NCBI GenBank assembly: GCA_944322625.1
Contig: CALUPN010000012.1
Location: forward strand, 1 to 36,180
DNA length: 36,180 bases
Direction of reading: 5' to 3'
Source of the DNA: Candidatus Gastranaerophilales bacterium
GTDB lineage: Bacteria; Cyanobacteriota; Vampirovibrionia; Gastranaerophilales; Gastranaerophilaceae
Below are positions 117 through 26,482 of this stretch, in pieces. Every line of letters begins with the position of its first letter. Positions within the stretch are counted from its first letter, which is position 1. Below the pieces are notes generated by a model. That model was not told where the DNA came from and made no database searches. It saw only the letters and a list, made by a program, of their open reading frames with translations. Both the position numbers and the translations under genes were made by a program.

Positions 117-913
117 TGGGGACTAATGTTAAAATATGTAACCATATTATGCCGGAAGCCCGTCTTACGTTTTCCAGAATAAGGGGCTCCGTTTCTGTCC
201 GAAATAGGCTGGCTGCAGGATATAATGCCCGATTTTACAAAGAACTAAATAAGCATTGTCCAAATGAAATTTGCGATATTGAACAATTTAAAAAGGTTCT
301 GGATAGTGTACTTTATCCTGACAAAATTCATTATGTTGTAAAAAATGAAACAGATGAAAGGTTTAGCGGTGGCTTAAATTCAATTATAAGTCTTAGTCCA
401 AAGAATGCAGAAGGTGATATTCAAATAAATCATACCGGATATGAAATAAAAATAAAAAATTTACATCCTGATAAATATACATTAATCCATGAGACAAGCC
501 ACTTATTTGATCATCTTTGTAACCCCAAATATAACATATTTCGCTTCCAAAATCTTATAAATAGCCCTAAAGACGAAAAACTTTATGACAAAATCAATGA
601 TATGTTCCTTATTAATCTTAATAAACCGGTAAAAATGAAAAAATTAAAACAAGAGAGTAATAAACTTCTTGCAAAATTATCACCGGAAGCTGCAATCGAC
701 GTATTACAGCGCTTAAGATACAAGTTAACCACAGAAATAAATGCTTACAAAAATGAACTCAAAGCCCGTTTTAAAGATAAACCTTTAAATTCAATAAATC
801 TGTTTATACTAATTTGCAGGAATTTCAAATTCAAGTCAAAGTTAAACTATGTAAACAATGCTCTGAAAACACAACTTGCAGATGCAAGAAAAATTTATCC
901 CTCAACTGATTGA
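116..913 (+). CDS. Unknown protein with HExxH zinc-metallopeptidase-like motif
   Basis: This is a 265-residue protein without a signal peptide or membrane segment. The visible landmark is HETSH at residues 125-129, inside the hydrophobic-flanked helix YTLIHETSHLFDH, which matches the zincin consensus HExxH. A downstream helix with TEINAY (E207) is a plausible third zinc ligand of gluzincin type, but that is inference. The C-terminal third is lysine/asparagine-rich. The start is the ATG of a TAATG overlap with the preceding frame, so the two are probably coupled. The 3' end overlaps the convergent ldpA-like gene by 19 bp. I do not recognise a named family. Proteolytic activity is suggested by the motif only. 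Confidence 0.75.
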   Translation: MGTNVKICNHIMPEARLTFSRIRGSVSVRNRLAAGYNARFYKELNKHCPNEICDIEQFKKVLDSVLYPDKIHYVVKNETDERFSGGLNSIISLSPKNAEGDIQINHTGYEIKIKNLHPDKYTLIHETSHLFDHLCNPKYNIFRFQNLINSPKDEKLYDKINDMFLINLNKPVKMKKLKQESNKLLAKLSPEAAIDVLQRLRYKLTTEINAYKNELKARFKDKPLNSINLFILICRNFKFKSKLNYVNNALKTQLADARKIYPSTD

Positions 914-1812
914 ACCAGTGCTCTTGCAGCTTCAACAGCTTTTGTTCTCTTATTTTCATCCTCCCAAAAATCCGGAGCTGTAATATAAGGTTTGATAATC
1001 TTTCTTGCCCAGGAGCCGATTGCAATACCCCAATAATTTATTCCGCAGAGTTTTGCGAGTTCTGCGGTTTTTGCGTTCGTTCCGCCGGATAAAACTATAT
1101 GTACCGGTAAATTTGCGTTTTGTATGATTTCAGCCATAGCAACGGCTTGTAATGTGGTTTTGTAGCTGTCGTCAGACCCGCTCATCGGTATCCCGTCAGC
1201 CTGAACGATTGTTGTATAAGGCTTGCGGTGAGCAATCATGTTTCTTATACGTTCTATGACCTCTTTATTTCCGTAAATTTCTCTATCAATGCAAATAGAA
1301 GCATATTTAGGATTACATTCATTTATAACGTTCCACTTGTATTCCAAGTCTTTCTTGTCATGTCCCATAATATGCAGTTCCAGAATTTCAACTCCGTTTT
1401 CAACCATATAAGGAAGAATTTCTTTTACATTAACATCTTTTTCAAACATGGTAATTGCACCTGTCGGACATTTTTTTGCGCAGGTTCCGCATCCGATACA
1501 GCGTTTTTCGTCTATCATTATTGAAGATAAAACTGCATCATTGGGACAATTCCTGTAACAATTGCCGCATTTAATACAAACAGACTCTTTAATCCTTGCT
1601 TTTGTAATATGCGGGTCGCCTTTAATTCCGATACTTACGCAATAATGGCAATCTTTTGCACCGGTCATGCCGACAGCAGTTTTTGCAGTCTCTAAAATAT
1701 CTTTTCTGGCTGAAATGTCAAAATACTTACATCCGGCAAGAGCATATATATATACAAGTCTTTTTACGCTTTCACAATCTTCATTACCGGCACCGCATAC
1801 TAATTTAAACAT
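895..1812 (-). CDS. ldpA: LdpA-like iron-sulfur protein (4Fe-4S ferredoxin domain)
   Basis: The 305-residue product begins FKLVCGAGNEDCESVKRL, then YALAGCKYFDISA, which resembles the opening of cyanobacterial LdpA, the 'light-dependent period' protein that senses redox state for the circadian clock. Two CxxCxxCxxxCP clusters at C79/82/85/89 and C105/108/111/115 should bind two [4Fe-4S] clusters. The C-terminal 180 residues form an LdpA-type TIM-barrel-like domain. It is the last gene of the lptB-led minus-strand operon, only 3 bp after the ftsL-like gene. Because this lineage has no photosynthesis, a clock-input role is unlikely; redox sensing or catalysis is more plausible, but that is inference. 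The family call rests on the N-terminal pattern and ferredoxin motifs. Confidence 0.8.
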   Translation of the reverse strand: MFKLVCGAGNEDCESVKRLVYIYALAGCKYFDISARKDILETAKTAVGMTGAKDCHYCVSIGIKGDPHITKARIKESVCIKCGNCYRNCPNDAVLSSIMIDEKRCIGCGTCAKKCPTGAITMFEKDVNVKEILPYMVENGVEILELHIMGHDKKDLEYKWNVINECNPKYASICIDREIYGNKEVIERIRNMIAHRKPYTTIVQADGIPMSGSDDSYKTTLQAVAMAEIIQNANLPVHIVLSGGTNAKTAELAKLCGINYWGIAIGSWARKIIKPYITAPDFWEDENKRTKAVEAARALVQSVEG

Positions 1813-1815
1813 AGC

Positions 1816-2355
1816 CTAAAAACCTATAGCGTTATTAAAAATCTTTTTCTTTACGGAACGCTTTGCTAACGCTTGCGTATCAACGGTAACTTCCGGAGTT
1901 TCAATCACCTGCCCCGCTCTTTGAAGCATATTGTTCTGCTGCAAGGTTTTATCCACATTATTGAAGGATTTTAAACTGTCAAGTTTATTTTGAAGTTCTT
2001 CATTTTCATTATTTAAAATAATGGTTTGTCTGCTTAAATCGTTGAGTCTCATTTCGCAGGAGATTACAAAATAGTAGCTAACAACAACAACGGTTATAAG
2101 CAGGCCCAATATGACACATAAAGTTTTATTAACTCTTTTAATTGCCATGTCTCTGACTAAATTCTCCTTTGGAAAGTACCCTTCTATTATACTATTAACA
2201 GCCAAATTTTGAATAGATTTGTCAACAAAAGATTTTTCTTTTGCAGAACCGTTTGTAGTATATTTGCTTTTAGTTTCATCAGATATTTTTTTTATAAAGC
2301 TGTTTAAGTTATTTTCTCTCTTGTTGTTGATTTTTAAAGCCGAAACCAATCTCAA
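1816..2355 (-). CDS. ftsL: FtsL/DivIC-like septum protein (single TM plus coiled coil)
   Basis: A 179-residue protein with the bitopic layout of FtsL: about 78 cytoplasmic residues, one membrane segment at about 79-99 (VILGLLITVVVVSYYFVI), then a predicted extracytoplasmic coiled coil at about 101-135 rich in N/E/L/Q heptads. Sequence identity in this family is always poor, so the call rests on topology plus position directly downstream of rsmH (mraW), the classic location of ftsL. FtsL bridges FtsB and FtsQ in the divisome. The cytoplasmic tail is longer than in Escherichia coli, and the C-terminus is basic (KRSVKKK). It could instead be an unrelated lineage-specific bitopic protein. Confidence 0.6.
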   Translation of the reverse strand: MRLVSALKINNKRENNLNSFIKKISDETKSKYTTNGSAKEKSFVDKSIQNLAVNSIIEGYFPKENLVRDMAIKRVNKTLCVILGLLITVVVVSYYFVISCEMRLNDLSRQTIILNNENEELQNKLDSLKSFNNVDKTLQQNNMLQRAGQVIETPEVTVDTQALAKRSVKKKIFNNAIGF

Positions 2356-2392
2356 TCACTCCTTATACCCAAAACTGAAATTTAACCAGCGC

Positions 2393-3322
2393 CTACCTTA
2401 TTTTTTTAGCTATTCTTAATTTAGCACTTCTCGACGGCGGATTTTCTTTAATTTCCTCCTCGCTCGCCATAATTGGTTTTTTATTCACCAGCTCTATTCT
2501 TGGCGGCGGACATTTGCAAATCATATCATTGCACCTGCACCTGGCGCTCTCATACTTGAAGATTCTCTTAACTATCCGATCCTCCAAAGAATGAAAACTT
2601 ATTACAGAAATTATACCACCAATATCGAGTAAATCCAATATATCATTAAGAACAATATTTACATTTTTTAACTCATTATTTACTTCTATGCGAACAGCTT
2701 GAAATACTCTTGTAGCAGGGTGTATATTAGACTTAATATGAGGAGTCGCTTTGATAACAATATCAGCAAGTTCTTTCGTTGTTCCAACAGGTTTAATTTT
2801 TCTAGTTTCAACAATCTTTTTTGCAATACGTTTTGAAAATCTTTCTTCACCATATTCACTAAATATCCTTACTAATTCATCTTCTGAGTATTTATTAATC
2901 ACATCATAAGCGGAAAAATCGCTGTCCATATCAAATCTCATATCTAAGGGAGCTTCTTTTGAAAATGAAAAACCTCTTTCCGCTTTTGTAAGTTGATGAT
3001 ATGAAGCACCCAAATCAATAATTACTCCGCCTGTAATCTTATCTATGCCGAGTTTCTTTAATTCTGTTTTTATATTTGTATAAGAGGATTTAATTATTGT
3101 CAGATTTGAGTAATTTTTTAATCTTTCACCGGCATGTCTTATTGCTTCATCATCAATATCAAAGGCAATAAGTTTTCCGTTAGGAGAGATTCGTTTTAGG
3201 ATTAATTCACTGTGGCCGCCTCCGCCAAGCGTGCAGTCAACATATATCTTACCGTCCCGGCATTCAAGAGCATCTACAGCTTCATTTAACATTACCGTAT
3301 GGTGCTTAAAATCATCAGTCAT
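2393..3322 (-). CDS. rsmH: 16S rRNA (cytosine(1402)-N4)-methyltransferase
   Basis: RsmH (MraW) methylates N4 of C1402 in the 16S rRNA P-site using S-adenosylmethionine. The 309-residue length is normal for the family. The N-terminus HHTVMLNEAVDAL and the SAM-binding loop DCTLGGGGHS (residues 29-38) are diagnostic. So are GASYHQL, LDMRFD, RVFQAVRIEVN and ISFHSLEDRIVK further on. It overlaps the dtd stop by 8 bp and precedes the ftsL-like gene, so the mraW-ftsL pair of the dcw cluster is retained inside an otherwise envelope-oriented operon. Confidence 0.97.
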   Translation of the reverse strand: MTDDFKHHTVMLNEAVDALECRDGKIYVDCTLGGGGHSELILKRISPNGKLIAFDIDDEAIRHAGERLKNYSNLTIIKSSYTNIKTELKKLGIDKITGGVIIDLGASYHQLTKAERGFSFSKEAPLDMRFDMDSDFSAYDVINKYSEDELVRIFSEYGEERFSKRIAKKIVETRKIKPVGTTKELADIVIKATPHIKSNIHPATRVFQAVRIEVNNELKNVNIVLNDILDLLDIGGIISVISFHSLEDRIVKRIFKYESARCRCNDMICKCPPPRIELVNKKPIMASEEEIKENPPSRSAKLRIAKKIR

Positions 3323-3764
3323 TGTTTTTCACCTCAAGCATAAAAGTAACGGGGCCGTCATTAATTAATTCTACATCCATCATAGCTCCGAAGCTGCCTG
3401 TAGAAGTTTTGATGCCGTACGAGGCAACTTCTTTAATAAAAGTTTCATATAACTCATTTGCAATGTCAGGAGCTGCGGATTTATCAAAGCTGGGTCGTGT
3501 TCCTTTTTTGCAATCTCCGCATAATGTGAATTGAGAGACTATCAGCATTTCTCCGTAAATATCAATAAGCGATTTATTCATTTTATCGTTTTCATCCGGA
3601 AAAATCCTTAAATTTACGACTTTTTTAGCCAGTTTCTCAACAATATCTTTCGTATCGCCTCTTTCAATTCCGATAAGAGCCAAAATCCCTTGATTTATAG
3701 AAGAATAAAGTTTGCTGTTTATTGTTACGGATGCTTTTTTTACTCTTTGTATAAGTACTTTCAT
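3315..3764 (-). CDS. dtd: D-aminoacyl-tRNA deacylase
   Basis: DTD hydrolyses D-aminoacyl-tRNA (and Gly-tRNAAla), proofreading chirality before translation. The 149-residue size is typical. The two signature motifs are present: SQFTL (residues 77-81) and NDGPVT (135-140), the latter carrying the Gly-cisPro dipeptide that gates the active site. The N-terminus MKVLIQRVKKASVTI is also typical. The start ATG overlaps the stop of the DUF115 gene by 4 bp, and its own end overlaps rsmH by 8 bp, so it is translationally coupled on both sides. Confidence 0.97.
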   Translation of the reverse strand: MKVLIQRVKKASVTINSKLYSSINQGILALIGIERGDTKDIVEKLAKKVVNLRIFPDENDKMNKSLIDIYGEMLIVSQFTLCGDCKKGTRPSFDKSAAPDIANELYETFIKEVASYGIKTSTGSFGAMMDVELINDGPVTFMLEVKNND

Positions 3765-5659
3765 TTTAAGTCCTCACAAGTTTTTAGTAACAGTGCAGAA
3801 ACGTAAGCAAGCCGTTTTTCTGCATTTGTGTAATAAATATTAAGTTTTTCTGAAAGATTTTCGACGGTTTGTACTGTAAATTCTTTTGTCATTTTCATTT
3901 CATAATCTAAATCAATACGCTCGGCGGTAGTTATAAAATCAAAAAGTAAATTCTTTTTAGCAAAAACCGTACTTAGATTAACATAATTAAGAGAAAGTTT
4001 TTTTAGTGTTTTTAAAATTTCTGAATTTATTGTTCTGTAACGTTTTAAATCATTATTTAGAGTTTTTACTAATCTCTGTCCTTCTTTAAGCTGTTTTTCA
4101 CCGTCGGCAAGCCCGTCAATAGAAGCTTTAATGTTTGTTTTTATTTTATCAATGTTGTATCTGAAATTGCATTTAAGCTCTCTGTTGTTTATTTTTTGAG
4201 TATCAGCCAGCGCTTCTTCCAGCGGCATATTTTTATATCCGTCAATTTGCGCGCCAATAAGCGACGTATTGATATATTCTCTGTCATTAAAGTGTTCGGC
4301 AAATTCTTTCAGAGGTTTTATGAAAGCAGCATAAACAGACTCTGTAGGTATCATATCGCCATTTATACCTTTTACGTAATATAGTGAATTGTTTAAATCG
4401 GCAAGTCTTTTTTTAGCTGTTTTTATCCTGTTTTCCTCATTTGGAGAGTTACTTAAAGATGCACAAAAATTATCAAAATCTCTTGCTGTTATTTCCCACT
4501 TCTTTGTTTCTTCGTTAAAACGGCATTCCAAATCCTTATAAGCAGAATCTTTACTATAGCACTGACCTTCTATATAGGCTAAGTCCTGACCGACTAAGAC
4601 AATTTTTGAGCAGCCTAAAATCCTGGCGCAATTTAATGCGGCATATGAAACGGTTCCTTTTGACCAGTATTCCGAAATATCAATTTCTGCTATATCTTTC
4701 CAGAAAAAATTAACCGGCTGGTTTGCAGAAATATGTGTATAAATATTTTTAAACTCAAATTTTCTTAAATTAGGGTGTGAAAACGCTTCGGTTATAAAGT
4801 TAATATTGCTAACATCAAGCCCTGTAATTTGTTTTGAGCAATCATTTGCTTCAATTATGCATAGAAAATCCGGCGTAATATTATGCCTTGCAATTGTTTT
4901 CATTGCAGTGCCTACAACAAATAACACAATATTATCTCTATACTTTTTAATGGTTTCTATGTTTCTGTCAAGTGTCGGCCCGGCAGATACCACAACAGCT
5001 GTCTTACCTTTATAGAAGTCTTTAAATTCAGCAAGCGGGGTTTCTTGAATAAGAGCGGGCATATTTATAATCAGCTTCTTCAGCAAGGGATAAAATTTAT
5101 CTTTTGTATATCTTAAATCCATTCCGTATGAACCGACCATTCTTTGAAGTTCTGCAACCAGTTCATTAAATCCGGTTTCGTTAAGTTTTCTGTAGGCTGT
5201 TGTAGTCAGCATAAGAGGGATATTTTTAATATTAGACTTCTGATATATATATTCTCCGGCTTTATCCAAAGAATCCGTAATGTATACATTCTTTTTTAAA
5301 ATGTCTTCAGAAAAATCTACAAGAGTAAATGCTGTTTTAAGGATATTCAAATCCGGTTCATATAGGATAATTGTTCCCAAGGAGTTTTTTGCCGCAACTT
5401 GAAATAAATATCCCAGGCCTATTCCGTATATGAGATGTATGGCTACGGGTTCATTTTGTGCTTTTGAAAATATTTCCAAAGCTTCTCCCAAAGGATTTTT
5501 AGGATTGTGAAGAGGAATTTTTTTATAAATCAGATTGTAAAATCCGTTTTCCTGTACGAGCTGAGGAATTTCGGTAATGATGTGAGATGTTAATTTTAAA
5601 GCAAGCTCATTGTCCTTTAGAGCTAAAGCTTCAATGTTTTTCTTAAAAATATTACTCAT
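3761..5659 (-). CDS. DUF115 / motility-accessory-factor-like protein (MptE-like domain)
   Basis: This 632-residue protein has the architecture of the Maf/DUF115 family: an N-terminal Rossmann-like region (YGIGLGY at 78-84, IILYEPD near 97-103) followed by a 6-hydroxymethylpterin-pyrophosphokinase MptE-like domain beginning GKTAVVVSAGPTLD (218-231), with VVGTAMK and PDFLCIIEAND after it. In flagellated bacteria Maf proteins transfer nonulosonic acids to flagellin. Here the gene sits between an Lpt-linked glycosidase and dtd, with no flagellar gene in view, so modification of another surface glycan or protein is more likely (inference). The C-terminal 150 residues look helical/coiled-coil. No signal peptide is seen. 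Confidence 0.85.
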   Translation of the reverse strand: MSNIFKKNIEALALKDNELALKLTSHIITEIPQLVQENGFYNLIYKKIPLHNPKNPLGEALEIFSKAQNEPVAIHLIYGIGLGYLFQVAAKNSLGTIILYEPDLNILKTAFTLVDFSEDILKKNVYITDSLDKAGEYIYQKSNIKNIPLMLTTTAYRKLNETGFNELVAELQRMVGSYGMDLRYTKDKFYPLLKKLIINMPALIQETPLAEFKDFYKGKTAVVVSAGPTLDRNIETIKKYRDNIVLFVVGTAMKTIARHNITPDFLCIIEANDCSKQITGLDVSNINFITEAFSHPNLRKFEFKNIYTHISANQPVNFFWKDIAEIDISEYWSKGTVSYAALNCARILGCSKIVLVGQDLAYIEGQCYSKDSAYKDLECRFNEETKKWEITARDFDNFCASLSNSPNEENRIKTAKKRLADLNNSLYYVKGINGDMIPTESVYAAFIKPLKEFAEHFNDREYINTSLIGAQIDGYKNMPLEEALADTQKINNRELKCNFRYNIDKIKTNIKASIDGLADGEKQLKEGQRLVKTLNNDLKRYRTINSEILKTLKKLSLNYVNLSTVFAKKNLLFDFITTAERIDLDYEMKMTKEFTVQTVENLSEKLNIYYTNAEKRLAYVSALLLKTCEDLK

Positions 5660-9612: not shown

Positions 9613-12216
9613 TTAAATACTTATTCTTATTCCAAACAACAGAGCAATACCGTTTCGACCTCCATTTCTTATCATTCCTTCTATAAATCCTGTTAATCTG
9701 TCGCCCCAGCGCTTTTGAATGCCAAGTCCGTATTCTACAAATGGTTTAACCGAAAGAGATGGTATATAAACATCATTAGCTTGAAAATTAGTGTGGTCTA
9801 TTAAATTCCAAACCATTGATACTGAAATATACGGCTGCAGGTAATTCTTAAAATTTCCGATAATTTTTATCTGCGGCTCTATATGGATTGCATGCAGCGG
9901 AGCGGCGTTTATTGAGACATTATAATCTGTTTTATAGCTAAAAGTATTAATAAAGCTGTATGACATTAAAAAACTTGGCTGGAGTATAAGTTTTCGGTTT
10001 AAAATCTCCCAATTATACCCTGTTTTTTCCGCAATACCGGTATTAAACATTACAAAATCCTGACTGCCGAATTTTGTCGAGGCTTCTGCGGCGTTAGCAC
10101 CTGCGTTTGCCGTCCAGATTGTAAAGAAATTCCCTTTATAAAAAGCGGCATCAATACCTGCTAAGCCTCCGTTATTATAAATACCGTTCCCGCTAAATGT
10201 TTGATGCGAACCGTTATATGAAACATAAGCTCCGTATAGAGAATACCAGCCGCGCTTTAATGCTTGAATTTCGCTTTCGCCTCCCAGAATTGTACCATAG
10301 CTTACATTAGAAACATTTTCCCCTCCTTTCAATTGTACATTTTCGAAAAGTGCGTAAGGTTTAAACCAGACCCCTTTTTGTTCTTCCGGCATGCTAAAGG
10401 GGACAAATTTAAAAAGTTTGTCAGTACTGGCTATTTTGTTTTTCATTGTATAGCCCGTTTTTATATCCGGAGGAGCTATCATAACCATATCAAGATTAGA
10501 AAAAACGCGTTTATAAGTGTCTAATTGGGTTAGATATCCTGCAATTTGCGCTGATACAGCGGGGATAAATACTGAAGAATTAAAATTACCTCTTAAAAAA
10601 TTAATATTTCCGTTTGCTGAGTTGTAATTTGAGTTGTAGTTGTAAATAGGAGTTTCTATTATTTGAGAAGAATATTTGACATAATCTTTAAGAACATTAT
10701 CTGCAAACGGTATCGAAACAGACGCTGCTTGCGGAGTTCCTTCTAAATTCAGCGGCTTAAGATATAAATAACCGTTTCCCGTAACGCTGTCTGCGGAAAT
10801 TCTGTCCATTGTGTTATTATTTAAGTTGATATCAGCGTATATATCTGAAGTACCGTTAAGAGTCAGATTCCCGAAATTTATATTGTTTATTTCACCGTTT
10901 TGCATGTCGAAGCTTGTGTTATTACTAAAAGATGTATTTTGCGCATTAAAATAAGAGCTTCCGTTCAACAATTTTATGCTTCCTTCTTGTAAGTTAAAGT
11001 TTCCCGTAAAATTATCGTTTTCGCCGCCAAGATTTAGTATGCCGCTTCCGTTTTTATTAATTGTCCCCAAGCCGGATATTCCGCTCAATACGTTATTAGC
11101 ACCGCTTCCCGTAAAAACAACGGTTCCCGAAGAATAGTTATAAATATCATTTTTTTTATTATCTTTTCCGTAATTGTTTTGAAGGGTACTGTTTTCAATA
11201 ACCACGGTCCCTTCATTTGCGATTCCTCCTCCTTCGGAATAGCCGGAAGTTGAATTAATCTTGTTATTTTCAATAAGAGAATTTCTGATAGTTGTTGTAG
11301 CTCCGGAAGCATTATAAATCGCGCCTCCGTCACCGTAAAAATCAGCCGATATTGTATTACCGCTCAATGTCGAATTTTCAATGGTAAGCTTTCCGCTGTT
11401 ATACATAGCTCCGCCGCGTACGAAAGATTGTCCATCACCGGAACTTGAATTATCGGAAATTATTGAATTCGTAAAAACTGCATTTCCGGTATTATAAAGA
11501 ACTCCGCCATAAGAAGCCAGGCTGTCATTTCCTATAGTCCGGTTATTATAAAAAGCAGAATTATTTACCTGCAGCTCTCCGGTATTATATATAGCCCCGC
11601 CTGTCGGAAGGACACTGCCTTCCGAGTAATTATCCCTGAATACGGAATTATTAATTGTCATAACGGTTGGAGTTTCTGTTGTTGTGTCATTTGCAACGGC
11701 ACCGCCGTAAGAACTTGCTCCGCTTGTGTAATTGTTTTCAAACAAAGCACGTTCAATATTGATATTTCCTCCGTTAATATTGTAAATTGCACCACCGCTT
11801 CCGAGATTCAGACCGTTTGCGTTCACGAAGTTATCATTAAAAGCCGATTCGGTAATGTTAAGTATGCCGCTGTCGTTGTATATGGCTCCTGCATAGCTAT
11901 AACCGCCGTATCGCTGTCCGCGGCAATTTCTTATATCGACTTGATTAAATCCCGTTCTGTTATTGAATGTAAAACCGCTAAAAGTATTATTGCCGTTAAT
12001 ATAATAGTTATTCCCCTCAAAATTAATATTTACATCCTCAAAATGAGTTCCTATAGAAGAATTTGAAGTTAAATTGCGGGTAATTGTAAAAGTATCTCCG
12101 TTTTGCGGAGCTGAATTTATTAAATCATCGAAAGTGTTTATTAATATATCATTTGCGAAAGCACAAGGTGTAATGTACAAAATTATAAAAGACAGTATAT
12201 ATTTAAATTCTTTCAT
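9613..12216 (-). CDS. Autotransporter-like adhesin: beta-helix repeats plus C-terminal beta-barrel
   Basis: This 867-residue protein has a signal peptide (YILSFIILYITPCAFA, cleavage near residue 21). From about residue 105 to 350 there are roughly eight repeats of about 30 residues with the pattern GGAIYN..G....I..S.F..N, the Chlamydia Pmp/beta-helix type, predicted to form a right-handed parallel beta-helix. A second Asn/Gly-rich helix portion follows to about 560. The last 270 residues alternate aromatic and hydrophobic residues and end FGIRISI, consistent with an autotransporter beta-barrel, although the terminal residue is Ile rather than Phe. It is monocistronic and divergent from the GT8 gene. 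An adhesion or surface role is inferred. Confidence 0.85.
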   Translation of the reverse strand: MKEFKYILSFIILYITPCAFANDILINTFDDLINSAPQNGDTFTITRNLTSNSSIGTHFEDVNINFEGNNYYINGNNTFSGFTFNNRTGFNQVDIRNCRGQRYGGYSYAGAIYNDSGILNITESAFNDNFVNANGLNLGSGGAIYNINGGNINIERALFENNYTSGASSYGGAVANDTTTETPTVMTINNSVFRDNYSEGSVLPTGGAIYNTGELQVNNSAFYNNRTIGNDSLASYGGVLYNTGNAVFTNSIISDNSSSGDGQSFVRGGAMYNSGKLTIENSTLSGNTISADFYGDGGAIYNASGATTTIRNSLIENNKINSTSGYSEGGGIANEGTVVIENSTLQNNYGKDNKKNDIYNYSSGTVVFTGSGANNVLSGISGLGTINKNGSGILNLGGENDNFTGNFNLQEGSIKLLNGSSYFNAQNTSFSNNTSFDMQNGEINNINFGNLTLNGTSDIYADINLNNNTMDRISADSVTGNGYLYLKPLNLEGTPQAASVSIPFADNVLKDYVKYSSQIIETPIYNYNSNYNSANGNINFLRGNFNSSVFIPAVSAQIAGYLTQLDTYKRVFSNLDMVMIAPPDIKTGYTMKNKIASTDKLFKFVPFSMPEEQKGVWFKPYALFENVQLKGGENVSNVSYGTILGGESEIQALKRGWYSLYGAYVSYNGSHQTFSGNGIYNNGGLAGIDAAFYKGNFFTIWTANAGANAAEASTKFGSQDFVMFNTGIAEKTGYNWEILNRKLILQPSFLMSYSFINTFSYKTDYNVSINAAPLHAIHIEPQIKIIGNFKNYLQPYISVSMVWNLIDHTNFQANDVYIPSLSVKPFVEYGLGIQKRWGDRLTGFIEGMIRNGGRNGIALLFGIRISI

Positions 12217-23398: not shown

Positions 23399-23478
23399 AA
23401 ATATTTGTAAATTTTTACTTAACAACTGGCAAAAAAATATTTTACACGTTTTAATTTAAATAATATTAAGGAGAATCC

Positions 23479-26427
23479 ATGCAAATTCAAAAAGTAAATT
23501 TCGCAAATATAACGCTGCAAAAACCATATACATTAAACAAAGTTCAAGTAAATAATAAAAATAACGAAACAAATAATTGTACAAATGTACTTTTAGATGG
23601 AATTCCAAAAAGTTATATAACTTTTAAAGCTGCAGATAATGAAAATAAGGTAATATTATCGGAAGATGCGGAAGAGCTGCTGGAATTGTCTGTAAAAGTC
23701 GCAAAGGATTCCGGTTCTGATGAAGTCCGCCCGGAGCATGTAATTGAAGCCTCTGTGCAAGCTGTGGAAACAAAATTCTCTGAGCCTGATTGCAATTTGG
23801 CAGCAATAGAGCCTAATGAATTACCGCCGCTCTGCAAAATTGCTAATAATACGGCAAAGAAAAATCTGTTTCAAAAGGACAGTGATATAAGGCAATTTAT
23901 AAAAGCTGTTGAAAAGCTTGCTGATCAGAATCTTGAGCGCTTGAGCAATCAACGGGTGCCGGACATCCCGAATAAAGAAAAGGAAATAAAGCTTTCAGAC
24001 TCTTTGCAGGATGAATTAAATCGCTTAAGCGGGAAAATAGCGTCAGCAGATGCAGGTATGTTGCTCGGTTCCGCTTTTAATGCACTTTCTCATAAAGGGC
24101 TTACTTATCCTTCCGAATTTTTGTTTGTCTTTTCAAAGCTGGCGCTATATAAGAATAAAGAAGATATAAAATCCGACTATTTAAAGCAATATGATGCAAA
24201 AGCTCTGGATGTGTGGAACAAGCTTGCTTTGGGCTCGAACTTATTTATAACATATAACAATGAGATAGAAGCTGACAGATTGACTTCCAGTATGTTAAAA
24301 ACAATAAATGCTCCGAAACACGGTAATTTTAGCAGCAGTAATACTATAGTAAATGTTATGAGCGAAGAGGTTTCTCCGGAAAATCTGATTAATGAAATTC
24401 TGCAAGCACAAGATAAAAATCCGGAAAAGCAAAAAATATACATTGTAAAGATGAATAATTTGATAAATAATATTGAAGATTTTCAAACGAATGGGTTTAT
24501 GAATTCAGATTTTATCAATATGGTGAATCTAAAAGATGCAAATACAAAATTTGTATTTTTACAGAATGAAGATATTTATTATCAATTAATGCGTGAAGAG
24601 TTGACACAAAAAATCTTTTCAGATTTTTTACTGCATTCGCTACCTCCGGTACATAGTTATGAAGCGCAGGAAATTTTGAATAAAAACAGAAAGTTTTTAA
24701 AAGATATTAAAACCCCTTTTACAAAAGAGGCTAAGGCAAAAGCTATTATGTATGCTGATAAGATAAAGGGAGTTTATCCGGATAAAGCTGTTGATTTAAT
24801 GAATCGTATTGCTAACTATTATGGTGAAGAAAAGAAGAAGATTACGTCAAAAGACGTTGATGAATTTGCATTTATTGCGCATAACTTGTTCAATAAAACG
24901 GAAGATAAAACGAATATAATTTATGATACGGGGAAAAATTTGGCCTCTCTTTACGGTAAAGATACTTCCAAAAAAGATGCTGAAGCTCTTGTCAGACAAA
25001 TAAAAACAGGCAGGGCCGGAACAAGAGGAATTATTATATATTCGCAGGATGAAGAAGCCGGCTCCGGACGCAGATATTTAGCTCAGGCAATTGCAGGTGA
25101 GGCAAAAGTTCCGTTTGTGGAAATTAATACTTCTGATTATGCATTGTCATCTGCAGCGGATGACAGCATAAAAAATAATCCCAAGACTGATGTGCATAAT
25201 ATTTTTGTAAAAATAAAGAAAGCTGCGGAACAAAACCCAAATAAAGCTGCAATTGTTTATATAAGTGATTTTGAAGAACTTGCTTTTTCAAATCCTTATC
25301 TGCCGGGTTATAAACAGGCCATGGCACAAATATTAAAAGAAATGGCCTGTGCAGAGGAAGAAGATGTAAGTATTCTGGTACTTGGTGCAACAAGAGAACC
25401 TTATGTTGATTATATACCTCTTGAAATCAGAGGATTTAATCAGTCTATTGCAGTAGATTCTCCTGCCTTTAACAACCGATCCCGCAAAGATATTATTGCA
25501 AACAGAATTAATGAAATAAATCTGCCGTTGGCTTGTAAGACTGCAACTGAAAAAGAGGAGATGCTCAATAAAATTGTGAAATTGACTCAATATATGTCTT
25601 TTGTTCAAATAAAATCTATGATAGAAAAAACAGAACAAATAATGCTGGAGAGAGAAAAAAGCAAAGCTTCGATAGGAGATTTCATTGAGGCATATTTGCA
25701 ATTGTCAACCGGCAGAACATCACGTCCGGAAATGCCTGAGTATAATAAGCGTGCTACAACATCTCACGAGTGCGGTCATGCCGTAAATTTGGAAGTTATG
25801 AATGAAATTCTCAAAGAAAAGGGAAAACCGTGGCATCAATTCAGAGATGTGAATTTTATAACTCTGGACCCAAGGGGGAATTTCTTAGGAGCTGTTTTTG
25901 AAGGTAAGTCTGAAAACTCTGATTATCCGTTTGAAGCGATGTTTACAGGATTGGTTTGTGCATACGGCGGATATTCTTGTGAAAAATTATTCTTTGATAT
26001 GGACGGTTCCAGCGGAATTTCTCAGGATTTAGCGCAGGCTGCTTTGTCTGCTAAAAACGGAATAGAGTACTTCGGTTTTGGGCATAATACCGGTAAAATA
26101 TCAAATGCCGCAGATATTAGGGCTGTTAAATATGATGAAAATGTGTTTAAAGATATGGATATAATACTTACTAATGCTCAGATTGCATCAGATTTAATAA
26201 CGGAAACATATAAACATTTCAATGAATGGTTTACAGATAAATATTCAAAGCTAATCGGGACTGATGATTGTATGATTGACGGTGATACATTCCGTTCCGC
26301 TCTTGCAGCCTGGAAAAAGACGCAGCCGCAAGATGTAAAAGAAGAATTTGCTATTTTAGGAGATATGATTATGGATATAATCAAGTCTTCAAAACAGGGT
26401 AAAATATATGGTAAATTAAAGCTGTAA
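23479..26427 (+). CDS. Large pseudo-AAA M41-type zinc metalloprotease (FtsH-like with degenerate ATPase sites)
   Basis: A 982-residue protein with FtsH-like homology but no membrane segment. Residues about 60-100 resemble a Clp N-repeat (VAKDSGSDEVRPEHVIEA). Residues about 255-450 resemble a Clp-type D1 AAA module: a lid-like region with YPDKAVDL (433-440), a Walker-B-like strand KIYIVKMNNLI (319-329) where the acidic pair is lost, and no visible Walker A. Residues about 515-700 align with the FtsH AAA module: EEAGSGRR (525-532) replaces GPPGTGKT, and YISDFEEL (594-601) replaces FIDEID. The M41 domain looks intact: HECGH at 763-767 and the third zinc ligand D850 in GISQDLAQA. ATPase loss with a retained protease is inferred. 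Start ATG with AAGGAG; monocistronic. Confidence 0.85.
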   Translation: MQIQKVNFANITLQKPYTLNKVQVNNKNNETNNCTNVLLDGIPKSYITFKAADNENKVILSEDAEELLELSVKVAKDSGSDEVRPEHVIEASVQAVETKFSEPDCNLAAIEPNELPPLCKIANNTAKKNLFQKDSDIRQFIKAVEKLADQNLERLSNQRVPDIPNKEKEIKLSDSLQDELNRLSGKIASADAGMLLGSAFNALSHKGLTYPSEFLFVFSKLALYKNKEDIKSDYLKQYDAKALDVWNKLALGSNLFITYNNEIEADRLTSSMLKTINAPKHGNFSSSNTIVNVMSEEVSPENLINEILQAQDKNPEKQKIYIVKMNNLINNIEDFQTNGFMNSDFINMVNLKDANTKFVFLQNEDIYYQLMREELTQKIFSDFLLHSLPPVHSYEAQEILNKNRKFLKDIKTPFTKEAKAKAIMYADKIKGVYPDKAVDLMNRIANYYGEEKKKITSKDVDEFAFIAHNLFNKTEDKTNIIYDTGKNLASLYGKDTSKKDAEALVRQIKTGRAGTRGIIIYSQDEEAGSGRRYLAQAIAGEAKVPFVEINTSDYALSSAADDSIKNNPKTDVHNIFVKIKKAAEQNPNKAAIVYISDFEELAFSNPYLPGYKQAMAQILKEMACAEEEDVSILVLGATREPYVDYIPLEIRGFNQSIAVDSPAFNNRSRKDIIANRINEINLPLACKTATEKEEMLNKIVKLTQYMSFVQIKSMIEKTEQIMLEREKSKASIGDFIEAYLQLSTGRTSRPEMPEYNKRATTSHECGHAVNLEVMNEILKEKGKPWHQFRDVNFITLDPRGNFLGAVFEGKSENSDYPFEAMFTGLVCAYGGYSCEKLFFDMDGSSGISQDLAQAALSAKNGIEYFGFGHNTGKISNAADIRAVKYDENVFKDMDIILTNAQIASDLITETYKHFNEWFTDKYSKLIGTDDCMIDGDTFRSALAAWKKTQPQDVKEEFAILGDMIMDIIKSSKQGKIYGKLKL

Positions 26428-26442
26428 TTATTATTGGGTAAT

Positions 26443-26477
26443 AAAAAAAAGAGCTTCTTTTAATGAAGCTCTTTTTT
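26443..26477. terminator. Bidirectional terminator between the M41-like gene and the parvulin gene
   Basis: GAGCTTC (26451-26457) pairs with GAAGCTC (26465-26471), flanked by eight A's on the left and six T's on the right, so it works in both directions for the two convergent genes. Confidence 0.9.
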
Positions 26478-26482
26478 ATATC

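Follow-up and report, generated by a model that had tools for sequence, protein, structure and literature searches.

A soluble protein of 982 amino acids, in which two degenerate AAA modules are joined to an M41 protease domain with a complete zinc site, is encoded in the window, that is, the whole stretch of 36,180 nucleotides analysed here (contig C12 of a 2.1 Mb host genome). With somewhat better than even confidence, the protein is predicted to be an ATP-independent zinc protease for unfolded chains, in which the dead rings serve as gate or scaffold. What makes it of interest is that the loss of the motor and the retained zinc site are both strictly conserved. The single gene (23479..26427, + strand) starts with ATG, has orthologues, and is preceded in the sequence by an AAGGAG ribosome-binding site (23468..23473, + strand) 5 nt 5' of the start codon. 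Past the stop, a terminator-like hairpin (26441..26481, no strand assigned), an inverted repeat with 90% complementarity and a T-run, lies between two convergent genes.

Domain layout and predicted folds

An AlphaFold2 model of the 982-residue chain was built with 55 sequences. The mean pLDDT of the whole-chain model was 82.5 and its pTM 0.46, a low value, so the placement of the two halves is not fixed by the model. Residues 56-475 modelled alone reached a pLDDT of 90.9 and a pTM of 0.82, and the top 50 Foldseek matches of this half were all Hsp100/Clp chains (ClpA, ClpB, ClpC, and Hsp104), indicating that the Clp-N-like segment and the Clp-D1-like module proposed in the first-pass annotation hold; residues 255-460, read there as AAA, are predicted to take the AAA fold of an Hsp100 D1. 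The C-terminal half matched FtsH-type proteases, and residues 484-943 aligned to FtsH (3kds_F) with a VIA-align Z of 27.8 and an rmsd of 5.6 over 411 residues. Sequence, predicted fold, and phylogeny all favour the reading of the chain as a Clp/FtsH chimera. No transmembrane segment was found in the protein, whose best 19-residue Kyte-Doolittle mean was 0.85 compared with 2.73 in the host's canonical FtsH used as a control, in agreement with its earlier description as soluble.

The helical Clp-N-like domain (residues 56-220; 23644..24138, + strand) is part of the model with pLDDT 90.9, and full-length Hsp100 alignments begin at model residue 1-6. When VIA-align comparisons to ClpB, ClpA, and ClpC were extended from the N domain onward, the rmsd was much larger than for the D1 part alone, probably because the two domains sit differently. 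The D1-like AAA module (residues 221-475; 24139..24903, + strand) aligned to Hsp104 (5vy8_A) with a VIA-align Z of 17.2 and an rmsd of 3.7 over 235 residues, and many ClpB, ClpC, and ClpA chains scored at Z 14-17.

The chain opens with a predicted disordered leader (residues 1-55; 23479..23643, + strand; pLDDT < 50), which together with the fast-evolving Clp-N domain changes faster than the rest of the protein. The leader carries the motif SYITFKA (residues 45-51; 23611..23631, + strand), seen in the alignments, with F49 nearly invariant in the family. In the host genome, its pattern [VIT][STN]Fx[GA] occurred in 17 of 458 soluble N-termini, compared with a mean of 7 and a maximum of 16 in 300 shuffles, and from this enrichment the motif is a possible lineage-specific signal. 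A disordered leader ending in the same pattern recurs on unrelated soluble host proteins, including AAA, phosphatase, PGI-like, and glycosyltransferase-like proteins (L204:11871-13355, L166:12620-13789, L183:10181-10663, L184:113-1408, L189:11752-13443, and L193:14408-17155).

Two dead AAA modules and a conserved zinc site

A P-loop requires about eight residues. In D1, the expected site is reduced to residues 260-261 (24256..24261, + strand), as seen in the sequence and by DSSP of the model, and since only these two residues link strand 254-259 to helix 262-274, the P-loop is absent. At the end of the D1 Walker B, KMNN (residues 324-327; 24448..24459, + strand) is found in the sequence and the orthologue alignment.

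The FtsH-type AAA module, D2 (residues 476-750; 24904..25728, + strand), was recognised by Pfam AAA at 29.8 bits, above the cut-off, and aligned to FtsH 3kds_F. Here the length of the P-loop is kept, with an eight-residue loop (523-530) between strand 516-522 and helix 531-542, and the degenerate motif DEEAGSGRR (residues 524-532; 25048..25074, + strand) has GxGR in place of GxGK. In the alignment of 55 orthologues, G528, G530, and R531 are kept, with Arg at the Walker Lys position in 54 and Lys in the remaining one. In the degenerate Walker B IVYISDFEE (residues 592-600; 25252..25278, + strand), the Asp position is occupied by Glu (37), Asn (13), Asp (4), or Ser (1), and the catalytic Glu position by N, K, D, or H, with Asn in 49/55 and Glu in none. 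In the second region of homology, LEIRGF (residues 648-653; 25420..25437, + strand) replaces RPGRFD with loss of the arginine-finger pair, which was absent in the alignment rows inspected. The FtsH pore-loop motif FVG was not recognisable in the protein, and FGG near this position in other clades is a candidate counterpart only. The view of the chain as a double pseudo-AAA protein is therefore borne out, since D1 has no space for a P-loop and D2 has Arg in 54/55 and the catalytic Glu in 0/55 orthologues; some distant relatives have canonical Walker motifs but form separate branches.

The M41 zinc-metalloprotease domain (residues 751-947; 25729..26319, + strand) is identified by its fold and by Pfam PF01434 (47.2 bits, cut-off 29.9). 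The motif HECGH (25765..25779, + strand) supplies the zinc ligands H763 and H767 and the general base E764, and D850 (26026..26028, + strand) occupies the position of the third ligand. H763, E764, G766, H767, and D850 are invariant in 55/55 orthologues, confirming that the zinc ligands are intact, and the motifs EEAGSGRR (525-532, with R531 and R532), ISDFEE (595-600), KMNN (324-327), HECGH (763-767), and D850 all stand at the residues first assigned to them.

For dN/dS, the analysis used seven close pairs whose synonymous distances were informative (L073/L075, L073/L089, L125/L129, L127/L134, L130/L138, L130/L142, and L138/L142), and sums over all pairs, which include saturated ones, were left out. 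The values were 0.04-0.09 for D2 and 0.03-0.17 for M41, so constraint on D2 is strong and about that of the protease domain, indicating that D2 still does a job in the protein and is not decaying.

Distribution, locus, and relatives

A single-protein query was searched against 288 genomes of the family Gastranaerophilaceae, of which 101 gave a match; five whose sole match was to other relatives were set aside, leaving 96 carriers of the 982-residue form, about a third of the sample. In the same search, 10 of the 18 sampled genomes of the window's genus had the protein. Two genomes from a second family in the order (G293 and G298) also have it. In the class and phylum samples, matches at E 1e-55 were found only inside the family; in a contig scan of genomes, the single-protein query gave no match and an alignment query gave matches. 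In the samples taken, the protein is thus restricted to Gastranaerophilales, as its suggested lineage specificity would have it.

The neighbouring genes are of a housekeeping kind (ssb, kinase, pdxA, and SurA-like), the ssb-like gene upstream being divergent and the SurA-like gene downstream convergent, and in other genera an enolase gene, recognised by eye, lies beside the orthologue. An operon partner was rejected, as none is conserved among the orthologue loci. In four genomes without the gene (G261, G269, G253, and G024), the kinase, ssb, and SurA-like genes directly adjoin and no remnant was found at the empty sites, indicating a clean presence/absence pattern, which does not separate gain from loss. 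Elsewhere in the window (9613-12216), an 867-residue protein begins with a signal-like segment and contains repeats; by eye it has the look of an autotransporter-type surface protein, and no Pfam family was found in it.

A pseudogene was rejected on the basis of purifying selection, intact frames, and a good ribosome-binding site. A local sequence error was likewise rejected, because the altered motifs are common to all orthologues examined, about a third of the sampled Gastranaerophilaceae carry the protein as one clade, and dN/dS in D2 is as low as given above. In genome G214, the orthologue L067 is broken up into two ORFs (814-3183 and 3239-3871), through either gene decay or faulty assembly.

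After removal of the motif columns, a tree of the AAA and M41 domains places the ATPase-dead proteins in one clade (100/100) and canonical FtsH in another (100/100), and the soluble relatives within the order group with the ATPase-dead clade, not with canonical FtsH. In L156, L157, and L159, which are among these relatives, the FtsH-type AAA module carries canonical Walker and arginine-finger motifs, and the N-terminal part matches the family's D1 (hhalign probability 99.2%, E 2.5e-19, 273 columns), again with no recognisable P-loop. With a P-loop-less D1 present in order-level relatives whose FtsH-type ATPase is still canonical, the simplest order is that D1 probably lost its P-loop first and D2 its ATPase motifs later.

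Other relatives show further combinations. L158, L161, and L162 are half-degenerate: GSGK and the protease motif (HELAH in L161) remain, but the arginine fingers are gone, as is the catalytic Glu. They join the pseudo clade with support of 71/32 only and on long branches, and their ATPase loss may be an independent event. The proteins L052-L065, except L064, are soluble AAA-M41 paralogues of about 760 residues with canonical motifs and an N-terminal part, possibly ankyrin-like, that is unrelated to the Clp half (hhalign probability 0.7%). L064 itself (708-3626, genome G031), found in one genome only, has canonical GPPGCGKT and IDEVD and carries REAGH for HEAGH, a mirror image of the 982-residue protein with ATPase motifs kept and the first zinc His lost.

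Proposed function and comparison with known systems

The chain would assemble, like FtsH and Hsp100, as a hexamer of stacked rings. In the protease ring, the zinc site is complete by sequence. The FtsH-type AAA ring, and above it the Hsp100-D1 ring, lack by sequence and predicted fold the residues for normal ATP binding and hydrolysis, so that folded substrates should not be pulled in. These dead rings would act as a scaffold and as a passive or ligand-controlled gate, the Clp-N domain and the disordered leader might make substrate or partner contacts, and the expected substrates would be peptides and unfolded or partly disordered proteins. By analogy, the protein would work in the manner of LonC, built from FtsH and Clp parts. 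An ATP-independent protease is suggested by the residue counts, in which an invariant zinc site accompanies a D2 catalytic Glu in 0/55 and Walker Lys to Arg in 54/55 orthologues, and by the models, in which both halves are predicted to have the expected folds and D1 to keep its fold without P-loop space. In addition, D2 is under strong constraint, no other soluble M41 protein was found at home to lend an ATPase ring, there is no conserved operon partner, and MtaLonC offers a precedent.

FtsH proteolysis is normally coupled to the AAA ring, and plant FtsH heterohexamers and the Ycf2-FtsHi motor are models for a protein that would draw its force from an active AAA ATPase, either mixed with it or docked on it, with the roles split between subunits; a heteromer of this kind may exist here and would speak against ATP-independent proteolysis. 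In cyanobacteria and organelles, heteromers of FtsH homologues are known (PMC9020784). In the host genome, one AAA protein (G000:C33, 495 aa) carries a leader but no protease, and matches to it in 104/288 family genomes co-occur weakly with the 982-residue protein (odds ratio 2.0, a value that ignores relatedness). However, 51 of the 96 carriers have no match to this type of AAA gene, and it was rejected as partner because the association is weak only. The canonical soluble paralogue of about 760 residues (L052-L065) occurs in few carriers and was not found in the host genome, and was rejected as a fixed partner on that ground; the sole other M41 protein found in the host genome is the membrane-bound FtsH, and no operon is shared. 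A heteromeric subunit, for which gene content points to no consistent partner, is the leading alternative, though considered unlikely.

A ligand-gated protease, whose near-invariant-Arg P-loop would bind a nucleotide or phosphate compound without hydrolysis and thereby open or close the protease, is regarded as quite improbable. G528, G530, R531, and the eight-residue loop are kept in D2, unlike in D1, and from this length and the near-invariant Arg a nucleotide or other ligand may still bind, as in LonC, where nucleotide binding persists in the absence of ATPase activity (PMC3391209). However, the Walker B acidic residues and the arginine fingers are gone from D2, which makes a normal nucleotide pocket there unlikely. 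It is highly improbable that the protein is no protease in practice but a structural or chaperone protein with a zinc site kept for folding only: zinc sites can be structural and the zinc motif is altered in one relative (L064, REAGH), but the general base E764 is invariant together with the ligands in 55/55 orthologues, and a site with a structural role alone would have no need of it.

Beyond the ATP-independent protease favoured here, it is possible, though doubtful, that the protein represents a distinct class of AAA-fold proteases, in which fused Hsp100 and FtsH halves have two non-hydrolysing motors and the Arg-for-Lys P-loop belongs to a gate that a ligand or partner controls and that closes off a live M41 chamber. 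A soluble, conserved M41 protein without ATPase motifs, together with same-order relatives with canonical motifs, forms a natural series, in which it can be asked what role an AAA ring has beyond ATP hydrolysis and whether loss of unfolding turns such an enzyme into a protease for unfolded chains. If true, the LonC case would gain a counterpart in another protease family, unrelated to Lon. In the open literature, no report was found of a Clp-FtsH fusion or of an M41 protein that combines a live protease with dead AAA modules, which is weak evidence, as subscription papers and preprints were outside the scope.

FtsH is the textbook ATP-dependent membrane protease. With FtsH (m-AAA, i-AAA; TIGR01241), the protein shares the order of AAA and then M41 with HExGH and the Asp ligand, and the same fold over residues 484-943, but it differs in having no transmembrane segment, dead AAA motifs, and an added Clp-N and D1 half. 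Its TIGR01241 score of 81.9 bits lies below the curated cut-off of 600, and the N-terminal anchor, functional Walker A and B motifs, and arginine fingers of the FtsH family are all lacking. With the Hsp100 unfoldases (ClpA, ClpB, ClpC, and Hsp104), it has in common the Clp-N and D1 fold of residues 56-475, whereas it has neither the D1 P-loop nor the Hsp100 D2 and is fused to an FtsH-type AAA and M41. L156, L157, and L159 share its leader, P-loop-less D1, and M41 domain, but are shorter, have canonical AAA motifs, and match the profile from about D1, with no Clp-N matched. Plant FtsHi proteins, which are membrane-bound with a mutated or missing protease motif (PMC8197885), are likewise FtsH-derived with one of two activities lost; the loss is the opposite one, since HECGH is intact here. 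The Lon-like protease MtaLonC has a degenerate AAA module that still binds nucleotide without ATPase activity, and it degrades only unfolded proteins, without ATP (PMC3391209). Both proteins combine an intact protease domain with AAA-like modules that lack ATPase activity in LonC (PMC3391209) and ATPase motifs here, proteolysis being predicted here, whereas LonC has a Ser-Lys Lon protease instead of a zinc M41 domain, a single AAA-like module, and no Clp half; the protease domains are unrelated, and the likeness, as far as it goes, would be one of mechanism only.
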